Positions 6,288 to 10,388 of a DNA stretch of 58,872 bases are shown here, piece by piece (position 1 is the stretch's first letter; each line of letters begins with the position of its first letter). Source of the stretch: a virus; the IMG/VR virus record IMGVR_UViG_3300032896_000005, positions 1 to 58,872 of that record; one strand, written 5' to 3'. The position numbers and the translations under genes were made by a program. The notes beneath the pieces are model-generated. The model was not told where the DNA came from, searched no databases, and saw nothing but the letters and a program-made list of their open reading frames with translations.

Positions 6288-6549
6288 AGGCTGGGCGGGG
6301 GTTTCGGAGGTTCCCGTTGACGGGAAGAACTGGCCTCTTGAGTTCGCCGCCAGGACGTTGGGCATCCCGGAGCGGGACCTTAGAGATCTCGTTCGTATCA
6401 TGGGGTTGTCGCCGACGGGGACGATGCCGATGGCTCAGTACCGGCGCTCCGGGAGGAACCCGCGTGTTTATGATGCGGCTAAGCTGGTCCGCCTGTATCA
6501 GCTGACACGGGAGCTGTCAGCAGAGTTGGGTACTCCGGACGGGGGTTAA
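6259..6549 (+). CDS. MerR/excisionase-like DNA-binding protein
   Basis: 96 residues from ATG 6259, overlapping the peptidase gene by 29 bases. After an N-terminal Cys pair comes a winged-helix pattern: PLEFAARTLGIPERDLRDLV, GLSPTGTM and the wing end VYDAAKLVRLYQLTREL. This is the usual order of a MerR-type or small-terminase-like helix-turn-helix. Its position just before the large terminase makes a small-terminase role conceivable, but it is short for that. Confidence 0.6.
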   Translation: MPDQRCGCRRGWAGVSEVPVDGKNWPLEFAARTLGIPERDLRDLVRIMGLSPTGTMPMAQYRRSGRNPRVYDAAKLVRLYQLTRELSAELGTPDGG

Positions 6550-6766
6550 GCCCTTCCGTGTTATCCCAGACGACGATCATGACCCTGCGGGATGATGAAA
6601 ATGGCAGGGTGAGTTCATCATCAGGGTGATTCTCGCAGCCGCAGAGGTGATCAGGGAGAAGCTGGATCATCTGCCGGACGCAGTGCACGTCATCATGCTC
6701 GTCGTCTTGCCATCCCTCGGAGTCGAGGAATTCACGGAGCCATTCTTCGGGTGTGATAGTGGACAT
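6479..6766 (-). CDS. Leftward small acidic protein
   Basis: 95 residues from the ATG at 6766, with AAAGGAA directly before it. The N-terminal 60 residues read as a plausible protein (ITPEEWLREFLDSEGW, then an acidic HDDVHCVRQMIQLLPDHLCG). No rightward gene covers 6550-6790, and codon use fits the minus strand. The last 24 codons overlap the end of the rightward gene tail to tail. Function unknown. Confidence 0.5.
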   Translation of the reverse strand: MSTITPEEWLREFLDSEGWQDDEHDDVHCVRQMIQLLPDHLCGCENHPDDELTLPFSSSRRVMIVVWDNTEGLNPRPEYPTLLTAPVSADTGGPA

Positions 6767-6814: not shown

Positions 6815-6941
6815 AAAATGTGGTGATGGTGTAGCGTACGATCTTCCAAGCGATTTCGATGACTGGCCCGACGCGGTTAAGAAGTACTTCATCGACGAGC
6901 TGCACAAGAAAATCCCTAAACCCCCCCGTCCATGGTACACC

Positions 6942-9900
6942 ATGGCCCGCCCGAAGCAGCTTCCCCCCGACCATCCCAGGCATCATCTCCCGGATAAGAA
7001 CGGGTACCGCTGCCGGTGGGTTGACAAGGAAGGGGTGACGCACCTCTGCCAAGGGCAGGCTGACTGGTTCATCTGGCTTTTCATGGCAGGTCGGGGTTGC
7101 GTCGCCGGGGAGACTAGGATTTACCTTCCGATGGAGGGGCGGCATGAGCGAATTGACGTGCTTGCCCGTGCGGGGAGGCCGATCACGGTACTGTCGCTAA
7201 CGGAGGACGGGGCTCGGGCTGTTCGGACGGATGGCGCTCCGTTCGTCCGGGGAGCGGACCAGCTTTACCGGGTCAGCCTGGCTGACGGCAGCGTTATCAC
7301 TGTGACGGGTCGTCATCGCTTCCTGACCCCGCAAGGATGGCGGCGATTCGCTGACGTGCGCGTCGGACAGCTTCTAGCCGGCGGCGCTCCCGTTCCTCCG
7401 GAGGGAGGTTCCTCTTCCCTATCAGGGTTTCCCGCAGATGCGCGGCGTTGGAAGAATACAGTCGCAGATTCTCGATCCGGTTATCCGAGGTATCACCGTT
7501 ACGGTGGTCAACCACCTCAGTCGGAAGTAGATAACGACCAAGAAAATGCTCCATCACCAGACGGTGCTGACGCACATATCCAGATGATGTCGCATGCGGA
7601 TGACCGGGTGCCTTCACGAGAATGTACCCATCTTCATCTACAGAATAGCCTCCGCGCCAGAAGTAATTACGCTCCGGGCGGGCTTTCGCTTCCAGCCGTG
7701 GCAGGTCTAGCTCTACTAGACGCTGGCGAACTGTTTCCTCGTCGCAGTCTAGTATCTCAGCCATTTCACGACACGTCAGCTGCTGCGAGTGGAAATAACG
7801 CAGGCGTTCCTCGTCGAGGTAGAATCGACGGGCCTCTGACATCCGTTTCCGGGTGGCGGGAGTTTTCCGGTGACCGCGCAGTCGGACTCCGGCTCTCTGG
7901 AGGGCACGACCTACCGTCTGGTAGGAAACACCGAGCTGTTCTGCTAGATCTTTCAGATTCTCACCTGCCTGATAGCGCTCTATCAGTTCCGGGAGCAGCT
8001 CAGGAGGAACACGGGAAGACCCTGGCGACGGCATGTGCGGATGCTATCACGTGGGCGCGGGTGGCGGCTATAACTCCTGCTGGGATGGGATTGTTCTATG
8101 ACATGACAGTTCCCGGGGCGGAGAATTACGCCGCTGAGGGGCTGTGGAATCACAACTGCGGGAAAACCCTCGCCGGCGCTAACTGGATTATCGAGCAGGC
8201 CCTCACCTACCCCGGCACAAGATGGGCTGTCGTCGCGCCCACCTACGATCAGGTGCAGAACGTCTGCTTCGCCGCCGTTGACTCAGGGATACGCGCGCAG
8301 GCGCAACCCGGGGAGCTGGTTGATTACAACAAGAACAACATGCTCCTCACCATGAGCAACGGGAGTGAGATCAAGGGGTTCTCCGCTGAGAACCCGGAAC
8401 GCGTGAGAGGGTACAACCTCGCCGGCGCGTGGCTTGATGAGGTCGGCTCCTACCGGTATCGGAGTATCTGGGATGAGGTTCTCCAGCCTGCTCTCCGTAA
8501 AGGGGACCCTAAGGTCATCGTCACGACCACCCCCAGCGCTTCCCCGCTTTTGAAGGAATGGTACGAACGGTGGCTGTCCCACGCCAAGAAAGGCGAAACC
8601 TGCGATATCCACCTGACGTCGGCTGTTTTCAAGGAGAATGACACGCTCCCCCCGAAAAGGGTTGAGGATCTTGAACGGCAGTACGGCGGCACTAGGATCG
8701 GCCGTCAGGAGCTTGAGGGGGAGATGCTGGAGGACTTCGAAGGCGCTTTGTGGCGTCGGGAGTTCATCGAAGCGCACCGGGTGAAAGAATCCGGGTTCTT
8801 CCATGAGAACGGGAAACTGAAAACAGAATTGTTCTCCCGGATCGTCGTCGCGGTGGACCCGTCGATGACGTCCGGGGAACGGTCGGATGAGTCGGGGATC
8901 ATCATCGCCGGGCAGGGCACCGACAATGAGGCGTACATCATCGCTGACTGGTCCGTGAACGGCACCCCTGAGATGGTGATGGGCAGGGCCGTCGCCGCCT
9001 ACTACGAGTTCTACGCGGACTGCGTGGTGATGGAGGCGAACCAGGGCGGGGATTACCTCACGAAGGCTCTCCGCACCGCCGATCCGAACGTCCCCCCTCG
9101 TATTGTGCGGGCGTCGAAGGGGAAGCTGATCCGCGCGCAGCCGGTGTCGATGCTCGCGGAGCAGGGTCGCCTGCATCATATCGGGACGTTTCAGAAGCTG
9201 GAGGATCAGCTCTGCTTGGCGGCGGGGACGCTGATCACGGTTCCTGCCGGTAAGATCCCTATTGAGTCTGTGATCGCCGGCGAAAAAGTTTTGACGCGGA
9301 AAGGATGGCGTTCCGTCACCTCTGTTTCCTGCACAGGCGTCCGGGGAACAGTGGAAATCGAGACTGGTATCGGGAATCTCGTGTGCACTCCGGACCATCC
9401 TGTATTCGTCGAAGAAATAGGGTGGGTAGAGGCTGGTTTTCTTCGTCCGGGTGATAAACTTGTTACGTGCCTAGAAAAATTGTCTGACCTTACGTCGAGT
9501 TCAACGGCGAGAAGTATTTCCTTGAGAACACCGGATATTACCGGGCAAGTCGTTCTAGAGGAAGACGGATCTTGCACCGTGATATCTGGGAAGACGCCTA
9601 CGGGCCTATCCCTGACGGATATCACATTCACCATAAAGACCATGATAAGGGTCACAACTGGCTCTCCAATCTCGTTGCGGTCACCCCTTCTGACCATGTT
9701 CGCGCCCACGGGGTACGCGGAGCATGGGCGTTCGCTGGATAATCACAGGCATCCCTCGCCCGGGGAATCTGGTAACGTCGAAAGTCCGTCGGGCCTCTTC
9801 CTACGGGCAGGGCGTGCGCAGCGTGTGGAAATGAAATCTTCACTTACCGAGCCGATATTGCAAAGTACTGTGGTAGAAAGTGTGCGAAACAAGCGCAATA

Positions 9901-10388
9901 TCGTAGAGCCTGTCTACGATCTGACAGTTGAAGACGCACACGAGTTCTTCGCCAACGGGGTGCTTGTGCATAACTGCATGATGACGCCGGAGCAGGACCG
10001 GCTGCGTCATGATGACCGCGCCGACGCGATGATCTGGGCTGTCAGCGAGTTGCGGGGGATCACGGACGGGTCATGGTCGGAGGCGTACGGGTGGGTGTAC
10101 TGCAATTCGTGCGGGCACGGGTTCGCGCGGTTGCACCGGAAATGCCCGAAATGCGGGCATAACATTGACCCTGCGGGGGATTCTTCGTCGCGGAGCCCGG
10201 GGAGCTGGGCGTCAGCGTACATGAACTATTGCAAGAAATGCGGGAGTAATTTCAGTTTCCGGGAGAAGGAATGCCCGAATTGCAGTCCGCCGCCGGGGGC
10301 GTCCCTGGCGTTGGTGGGGCAGTACACGGGGAAGCAGAACTGGCTGACGTTCAAGCAGAACAACTGGCTGACGGGACGAAAATTCTAG
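6942..10388 (+). CDS. terL: Large terminase subunit containing two inteins
   Basis: The precursor is 1148 residues from ATG 6942; removing two inteins leaves about 541. Extein features: Walker A re-formed as AGRG-C-GKT, ATPase strand VAPTYDQVQN, Walker B WLDEVG, VTTTPSAS coupling motif, nuclease-domain VVAVDPSMTSGE and a last Asp cluster HDDRADAMIWA. The C-terminus adds two zinc-ribbon half-site pairs (YCNSCGHG, KCPKCGH; YCKKCGS, ECPNCS). No SD precedes ATG 6942, and protein-like sequence (DLPSDFDDWPDAVKK, then KKYFIDELHKKIPKPP) continues in frame upstream to about 6831 without ATG, GTG or TTG, so the true start may be a non-standard GTA at 6831. The enzyme cuts and pumps DNA into proheads. 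Confidence 0.93.
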   Translation: MARPKQLPPDHPRHHLPDKNGYRCRWVDKEGVTHLCQGQADWFIWLFMAGRGCVAGETRIYLPMEGRHERIDVLARAGRPITVLSLTEDGARAVRTDGAPFVRGADQLYRVSLADGSVITVTGRHRFLTPQGWRRFADVRVGQLLAGGAPVPPEGGSSSLSGFPADARRWKNTVADSRSGYPRYHRYGGQPPQSEVDNDQENAPSPDGADAHIQMMSHADDRVPSRECTHLHLQNSLRARSNYAPGGLSLPAVAGLALLDAGELFPRRSLVSQPFHDTSAAASGNNAGVPRRGRIDGPLTSVSGWREFSGDRAVGLRLSGGHDLPSGRKHRAVLLDLSDSHLPDSALSVPGAAQEEHGKTLATACADAITWARVAAITPAGMGLFYDMTVPGAENYAAEGLWNHNCGKTLAGANWIIEQALTYPGTRWAVVAPTYDQVQNVCFAAVDSGIRAQAQPGELVDYNKNNMLLTMSNGSEIKGFSAENPERVRGYNLAGAWLDEVGSYRYRSIWDEVLQPALRKGDPKVIVTTTPSASPLLKEWYERWLSHAKKGETCDIHLTSAVFKENDTLPPKRVEDLERQYGGTRIGRQELEGEMLEDFEGALWRREFIEAHRVKESGFFHENGKLKTELFSRIVVAVDPSMTSGERSDESGIIIAGQGTDNEAYIIADWSVNGTPEMVMGRAVAAYYEFYADCVVMEANQGGDYLTKALRTADPNVPPRIVRASKGKLIRAQPVSMLAEQGRLHHIGTFQKLEDQLCLAAGTLITVPAGKIPIESVIAGEKVLTRKGWRSVTSVSCTGVRGTVEIETGIGNLVCTPDHPVFVEEIGWVEAGFLRPGDKLVTCLEKLSDLTSSSTARSISLRTPDITGQVVLEEDGSCTVISGKTPTGLSLTDITFTIKTMIRVTTGSPISLRSPLLTMFAPTGYAEHGRSLDNHRHPSPGESGNVESPSGLFLRAGRAQRVEMKSSLTEPILQSTVVESVRNKRNIVEPVYDLTVEDAHEFFANGVLVHNCMMTPEQDRLRHDDRADAMIWAVSELRGITDGSWSEAYGWVYCNSCGHGFARLHRKCPKCGHNIDPAGDSSSRSPGSWASAYMNYCKKCGSNFSFREKECPNCSPPPGASLALVGQYTGKQNWLTFKQNNWLTGRKF
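7098..8156 (+). other. Intein 1, in the terminase Walker A motif
   Basis: 353 codons between GRG and CGKT. N-terminal splicing block A: CVAGETRIYL (Cys1 at 7098). Block B: VITVTGRHRFLT with the Thr-x-x-His pair. C-terminal blocks F and G: FYDMTVPGAENYAAEG and LWNHN, ending in His-Asn before Cys+1. All residues needed for protein splicing are visible. The central part (about 7390-8060) reads as low-complexity sequence in the intein frame because it is the complement of an HNH endonuclease gene on the other strand. Confidence 0.92.
7297..8034 (-). CDS. HNH homing endonuclease encoded antisense inside intein 1
   Basis: 245 residues, entirely within intein 1 but on the opposite strand. Domains in order: helix-turn-helix 1 (ENLKDLAEQLGVSYQTVGRA, about 25-50), helix-turn-helix 2 (TCREMAEILDCDEETVRQRL, about 80-110), a strand region with NYFWRGGYSVDEDGYI, then the HNH core GYVRQHRLVMEHFLGR, VVDHRNGDTSDNRIENLRL (about 140-200) and a basic C-terminus. 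The core is of the HNH_3 type common in phage homing enzymes. The ATG at 8034 has no obvious SD. The gene is intact, so the nuclease could be made independently of the spliced terminase. Confidence 0.88.
   Translation of the reverse strand: MPSPGSSRVPPELLPELIERYQAGENLKDLAEQLGVSYQTVGRALQRAGVRLRGHRKTPATRKRMSEARRFYLDEERLRYFHSQQLTCREMAEILDCDEETVRQRLVELDLPRLEAKARPERNYFWRGGYSVDEDGYILVKAPGHPHATSSGYVRQHRLVMEHFLGRYLLPTEVVDHRNGDTSDNRIENLRLYSSNAAHLRETLIGKRNLPPEERERRRLEAVRRARQRIAAILAGSGSDDDPSQ
9213..9974 (+). other. Intein 2, in the terminase nuclease domain
   Basis: 254 codons between LEDQL and CMMTPEQDRL. Block A: CLAAGTLITVPAGKIPIESV. Block B: NLVCTPDHPVF with Thr-x-x-His. Block F/G: EPVYDLTVEDAHEFFANG and VLVHN before Cys+1. 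A splicing-competent Hint domain is apparent. It sits where the terminase sequence would otherwise read LEDQLCMMTP, just before the last metal-binding Asp region. The insert between blocks B and F (about 9480-9800) is not a recognisable endonuclease in the intein frame; an HNH domain lies in another frame there. Confidence 0.9.
9467..9742 (+). pseudogene. HNH endonuclease overprinted in another frame of intein 2, with in-frame TGA
   Basis: One base out of the intein frame, positions 9488-9742 encode a typical small phage HNH enzyme: VEFNGEKYF, TGYYRASRSRGRRILHRDIW, YGPIPDGYHIHHKDHDKGHN, then WLSNLVAVTPSDHVRAHG and a TAA stop at 9740. A fitting start exists at GTG 9467 (Met-Pro-Arg-Lys-Ile-Val), but codon 7 is TGA (9485-9487). 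No ATG or GTG occurs downstream before the core; a TTG falls just before LHRDIW. Either the nuclease is dead by one nonsense change, the TGA is read through, or a truncated form is made. Confidence 0.8.

Follow-up and report, generated by a model that had tools for sequence, protein, structure and literature searches.

Intein 1 of the terminase large subunit gene (terL) in the viral DNA analysed here is very probably a mobile intein composed of two genes, one on each strand. The sequences show its anatomy, its conservation and selection, its sporadic spread and its start signals; splicing, DNA cutting, homing and separate expression we infer. Its sense strand would encode a Hint splicing domain and, where ordinary inteins have their endonuclease domain, a long and probably unstructured linker; this linker would be the reverse complement of an independent nuclease gene with helix-turn-helix (HTH) and HNH domains. 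Transcribed from its own signals lying inside the C-splicing coding region, the nuclease would be made apart from the late terL message and would bind, then cut, the conserved Walker A coding sequence of an intein-free terL. Repair from the occupied copy would then transfer intein and nuclease jointly, as one segment. The precursor of terL would become active by splicing out the intein, and selection would maintain three things: the nuclease protein, both splicing segments and an intein frame free of stops across the nuclease gene. Several lines of evidence support the presence of an antisense nuclease gene within a bona fide intein: family profiles, strand- and phase-specific purifying selection, recurrence in many independent contigs and in cultured phages, and upstream start signals. 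The window, that is the whole stretch of DNA analysed, is a complete IMG/VR virus record of 58,872 bp, and the features discussed are collected in Table 1.

Table 1. Coordinates of terL, its two inteins and the associated nuclease features in the window.
Feature	Position	Strand	Remarks
terL, terminase large subunit, with two inteins	6942-10388	+	one open frame, 1148 aa
Intein 1, 353 aa, C53-N405 of terL	7098-8156	+	Walker A, GRG^C...HN^CGKT
Intein 1, N-terminal splicing segment, blocks A and B, TGRHRFLTPQGW	7098-7380	+	
Intein 1, C-terminal splicing segment, blocks F and G, FYDMTVPGAENYAAEGLWNHN	8035-8156	+	dN/dS 0.08, invariant HN end
HTH and HNH_3 homing-type nuclease gene, intact, 245 aa	7297-8034	-	inside intein 1
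Overlap of block B and nuclease C-tail coding	7300-7380	both	synonymous change low in both frames
Putative -10 element TAGCAT	8041-8046	-	6 nt before nuclease ATG, leaderless spacing
Intein 2 of terL, 254 aa, different intein class	9213-9974	+	Intein_splicing 8.9e-12 on 9219-9974
Decayed HNH_3 in another sense frame of intein 2	9488-9739	+	HNH_3 4.5e-14

The host gene is not fractured into two ORFs, as it would be around a split intein: the terL frame is uninterrupted throughout and gives Pfam matches to Terminase_6N (5.6e-18) and Terminase_6C (2.8e-14) plus two to Intein_splicing. The terL homologues of two related loci, L004 and L005, align 5' of the ATG at 6942 (window about 6830-6941), so that the true start of terL is probably earlier. 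The space separating terL from the gene before it is filled by a minus-strand ORF of 95 aa (6479-6766), which may be a real small gene. Over intein 1 the sole Pfam match of the sense frame is Intein_splicing (2.6e-11), and Pfam detects no in-frame nuclease domain of the kind found in canonical endonuclease inteins. An earlier note on this DNA had described the splicing blocks as complete at both ends, and they are: the nucleophile Cys at residue 1 (C53 of terL, at 7098), T70 and H73 of the block B TxxH motif and the string RFLTPQGW are invariant across eight aligned relatives, the intein ends in WNHN before CGKT, and a Hint fold is predicted. In the wider class described below, H-N-[C/S/T] is present in 65 of 67 members and C1 in 63 of 66. 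The insertion is exact and in frame, and L004 and L005 terL are empty at the site. On all the features tested intein 1 thus belongs to the intein family, splicing itself being predicted, but its nuclease arrangement lacks the trait that defines canonical endonuclease inteins.

On the opposite strand, the nuclease ORF matches HNH_3 (4.1e-12) and HTH_28 (2.8e-8) and carries tandem HTH DNA-binding domains; in all eight aligned members the ORF is intact and residues H177, N185, N189 and H199 are invariant. The intact 245-residue HNH endonuclease of the earlier note is confirmed with its coordinates, and the objection that the minus-strand frame might lack any HNH match does not hold, since profile searches of both strands find the intein on the plus strand and HNH_3 on the minus strand. 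When the nuclease model was compared with known structures (Foldseek), no confident match was obtained, I-HmuI being matched weakly (E 0.30).

The substitution pattern was read mainly from one reference pair, the window and L002, a divergent phage with a 353-aa intein at the same site and no indels between the two. The phase is such that nuclease position 1 lies opposite intein position 1, and the nuclease wobble position opposite intein position 2. Differences at intein codon positions 1/2/3 number 7/10/37 in 7098-7296, 18/89/17 in 7381-8031 and 9/5/20 in 8035-8156, so that 89 of the 124 differences in the middle fall at the nuclease wobble position. At either end of the nuclease gene the variable position thus changes strand, from the intein wobble in the splicing segments to the nuclease wobble between them, which shows both frames to be real. 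Against L002, dN/dS of the nuclease frame is 0.086-0.105 (0.086 in 7381-8034), and that of the splicing segments is 0.11 (7098-7296) and 0.08 (8035-8156); the nuclease protein is 85% identical, and the intein frame over the same stretch 57%. By this pattern the middle of the intein is selected mainly as nuclease, its intein frame being merely kept stop-free. Both proteins appear to be constrained only in a short overlap at about 7300-7380, where pS falls to 0.21 in the intein frame and 0.17 in the nuclease frame, compared with 0.63 in the neighbouring N-splicing segment. The proposal that selection acts on both strands of one DNA segment was therefore overstated for the segment as a whole. The other pairs tested agree, although many are saturated at synonymous sites: nuclease dN/dS is 0.07 for L056/L072, 0.09 for L084/L090 and 0.15 for L014/L046, and their splicing halves are also under purifying selection.

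A stop-free intein frame across the nuclease gene is improbable by chance. When synonymous codons of the nuclease gene were shuffled and stops counted in the intein frame, 3.5 stops arose on average, and the probability of none was 0.012 for the window, 0.017 for L002 and near zero for most relatives. All members together give 417 expected stops and none seen, a count made on members that were initially chosen as single ORFs. The observation that the intein frame stays open across the entire nuclease stretch, within a single terL ORF, is upheld. AlphaFold predicts the Hint domain confidently (residues 1-99 and 315-353, pLDDT mostly 80-94), and gives the antisense-coded middle of 215 residues a pLDDT of about 32, a prediction of disorder. 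In structure comparison the Hint model is matched by the splicing domain of Mtu RecA (2imz, E 7.4e-8, rmsd 1.9) and also by the Ssp DnaB mini-intein. As modelled, the middle of intein 1 is probably a linker without structure, of which selection demands little beyond an open frame.

Upstream signals point to separate expression of the nuclease. A Shine-Dalgarno sequence of at least 4 nt precedes 39 of 67 nuclease ATGs, compared with 56 of 525 out-of-frame control ATGs, and an exact TATAAT lies within 60 nt upstream of the ATG in 12 of 67 members (3.2% expected). The arrangement seen in the window, TANNNT-N6-ATG, is conserved in L002 (TAGTAT), L009, L010, L013 and relatives. This spacing fits leaderless starts in the window subfamily and presumes a host that uses them. 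A generic sigma-70 scan of the window returned no minus-strand promoter, so that the nuclease promoter marked in Table 1 is a proposal only.

The arrangement is not a single curiosity: on sequence comparison, antisense-HNH inteins are a widespread class. A viral scan with eight nucleases as query left 80 loci, and in 66 of these the nuclease lies antisense inside an intein; among the remaining 14, L076 is open too, L078 has one stop, L064 is split, L028 and L055 are cut by contig ends, and nine have no intein. Where both halves of the intein are visible, its frame is open in 67 of 69 loci, L078 and L064 being the exceptions. The 67 distinct members come from many metagenomes and share one orientation and phase; they are not 67 independent tests, because of common ancestry, and phase, being constant within each class, is not counted as evidence per member. 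Most host genes are terL of the Terminase_6N and Terminase_3 families; others are SNF2/ResIII-type helicases and one AAA_24 gene, with insertion at Walker A, and for several Pfam returned nothing. The arrangement is present in the complete genomes of Pectobacterium phages Ymer and Sabo, Dickeya phage Setonix and Pseudoalteromonas phage PHS3. A scan of genome contigs with the inteins added Polaromonas sp. CG9_12, which has the same architecture; cyanobacterial inteins from the same scan are not of this class.

Other searches returned less. Genome contigs scanned with the HNH pair alignment and a phage collection searched at nucleotide level with terL gave no match, a plasmid collection yielded none, and when phage records were queried with three more inteins, nothing closer than distant N-splicing matches came up. 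Nuclease matches in KashFlow, MW202481, SirSheldon, BILI, phiH, Pan2, GAL1 and Neville were set aside as not antisense, their annotated strand being that of the neighbouring genes or of the host gene; PG-2021_4, a record without annotation, also contains a match. L015 and L016 seem to be inteins that contain long in-frame insertions, with no large antisense ORF in either. In L064 (3352-4422) the antisense HNH is kept, whereas six stops break the intein frame and the C-half has an ATG of its own from which it restarts; this locus is likely a split intein, that is a fractured gene, of the antisense-HNH class. Among the annotated genomes, PHS3 terL is annotated too short and cut at the intein, because the antisense HNH was called as the gene. 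Ymer terL is labelled a hypothetical protein and its HNH is unannotated. The GenBank record of Setonix (MN812689.1) is UNVERIFIED and without annotation, and in it both the terL frame and the antisense HNH are intact. A distant terL (IMGVR_UViG_3300012929_000038) has two inteins, with an antisense HNH in the first and a sense, out-of-frame HNH in the second.

The nuclease also bears a signature of horizontal mobility that would fit homing, given the conflict between terL and nuclease trees and the empty sister terL genes. Over the 260 residues after the P-loop (C-extein), the window and L002 are 52% identical and L002 and L010 83%, whereas the nucleases are 85% and 65% identical, respectively. 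In AU tests a clade of window and L002 is rejected for the extein (p=1.8e-6, in a tree with long branches), and a clade of L002 and L010 is rejected for the nuclease at a moderate p=0.0145. The closest terL genes found, L004 (73% identical) and L005 (69%), lack the intein.

Two further classes of nuclease-carrying inteins were met. One has an antisense HTH and Vsr-like (MTES_1575/DUF559) nuclease in inteins of phage head proteins (Phage_min_cap2, Phage_Mu_F); first met in L020 and L021, it comprises these and L153-L189. Its intein frame is open across the nuclease in all 29 loci checked, its phase differs from that of the HNH class in that the codons are mutually reverse-complementary, and it has no TTA, CTA or TCA codons, compared with 158.7 expected from host-gene usage. 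The other is represented by intein 2, which by its reading frames is a third class with the nuclease on the sense strand and out of frame. In the window this HNH is reduced to 84 codons; relatives, among them L127, L128, L129, L136, L142 and L150, keep an intact HNH ORF of 170-260 aa in the same frame, with the intein frame open. Phage inteins in which the nuclease has an overlapping gene of its own are likely to constitute a widespread and undescribed group, with at least two antisense origins (HNH_3 at Walker A, phase 1, and Vsr-like in head proteins, phase 3) and one sense, out-of-frame origin. The nucleases of this group would have their own expression signals, uncoupling their production from the host gene, and the spliced-out peptide would read the nuclease gene in a frame that is open and otherwise carries no meaning.

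Could the minus-strand ORF be a chance antisense frame of a GC-rich gene, its HNH likeness spurious? Length alone proves little, since the terL extein contains a chance stop-free antisense frame of 311 codons. However, the nuclease gene is taken to be real on homology and on its substitution pattern against L002: the HNH_3 score, the concentration of differences at nuclease wobble, which by itself already refutes a chance frame, and the far better conservation of the nuclease than of the intein frame leave this idea with practically no credibility. The idea that assembly inverted an in-frame endonuclease domain in a single contig, a doubt raised by the earlier note and favoured by nothing in the data, can be put aside just as firmly: comparison with related phages finds the 67 distinct members in one orientation and phase, and cultured phages with complete genomes show the same arrangement.

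It is improbable, too, that the nuclease is a co-opted packaging factor rather than a homing enzyme. Most members do reside in terL, and HNH proteins adjoining terminases can serve packaging (Kala 2014, as cited in PMC12613952), but the same class also occupies helicase and AAA_24 genes, always at Walker A, and the sporadic distribution with empty sister genes, the conflict between extein and nuclease trees and the tandem HTH domains argue against such a role. A tolerated, unspliced loop hiding a nuclease has been proposed for the ShiLan domain, whose insertions have no detectable splicing domain and leave the host frame open (PMC11855218); for intein 1 it is very unlikely, because the splicing motifs are kept, both splicing segments are under purifying selection, the Hint fold is predicted and the insert breaks a Walker A motif that must be restored. 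We give equally little credence to a nuclease relic, formerly active and now merely carried. Inteins do decay, and the HNH of intein 2 in the same gene is broken, but the intein 1 nuclease has a dN/dS of about 0.09 and retains its ORF and active-site residues in every aligned member.

If the two-gene reading is correct, inteins can be mobile in a manner of which we found no description, with the nuclease written backwards as a separate opposite-strand gene within an essential gene. This would bear on how nucleases invade inteins, on how one DNA stretch keeps two messages and on the origin of split inteins, for which L064 looks like a broken intermediate. Annotation pipelines treat such loci badly, as in Ymer and PHS3 terL, and the many related locus pairs are a natural data set for antisense overlapping coding.

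In textbook mobile inteins the nuclease and the splicing domain are one protein, which ties the nuclease to host-gene expression. Such maxi inteins (LAGLIDADG/HNH) share with intein 1 the Hint domain, a nuclease between blocks B and F, insertion at a conserved motif and sporadic spread, but their nuclease forms an in-frame part of the protein that is spliced out, whereas that of intein 1 has its own gene on the opposite strand. A conventional in-frame intein of this kind, judged by eye to be of LAGLIDADG type, occurs in the P-loop region of terL in Bacillus phage KLEB27-3. Dassa (NAR, 2009) reportedly described genes fractured by split inteins, mainly in phages, in which free-standing Vsr-like nucleases lie between the halves. 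These systems resemble intein 1 in having a nuclease gene between intein halves, and one of our classes in its Vsr-like nucleases; the host gene is broken in two in them, whereas that of intein 1 is a single open frame throughout, L064 being the broken member.

The statement that no such case has been described stands to the extent that the full-text literature searched contained no antisense HEG in an intein (some key intein papers lie outside it, and priority is uncertain); it does not stand as regards analogues, which exist (PMC9548176; PMC11855218). The ShiLan insertion, like intein 1, is a sporadic phage element that hides an HNH in another frame of an open host gene, but it lies on the same strand, in the third frame, with no splicing domain (PMC11855218). 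Intein 2 is closer to it than intein 1 is, but within a true intein. Antisense His-Cys HEGs occur in nuclear group I introns of rDNA (PMC9548176), and these too are HEGs antisense within a self-splicing element; unlike intein 1, group I introns splice as RNA and have no protein frame to keep open, and an Rfam search of the intein 1 region returned no intron family at E up to 1. The antisense nuclease itself shares HNH_3 and a DNA-binding helix-turn-helix with the I-HmuI-type homing nucleases, which are intron-encoded or free-standing genes, whereas that of intein 1 lies antisense in an intein.
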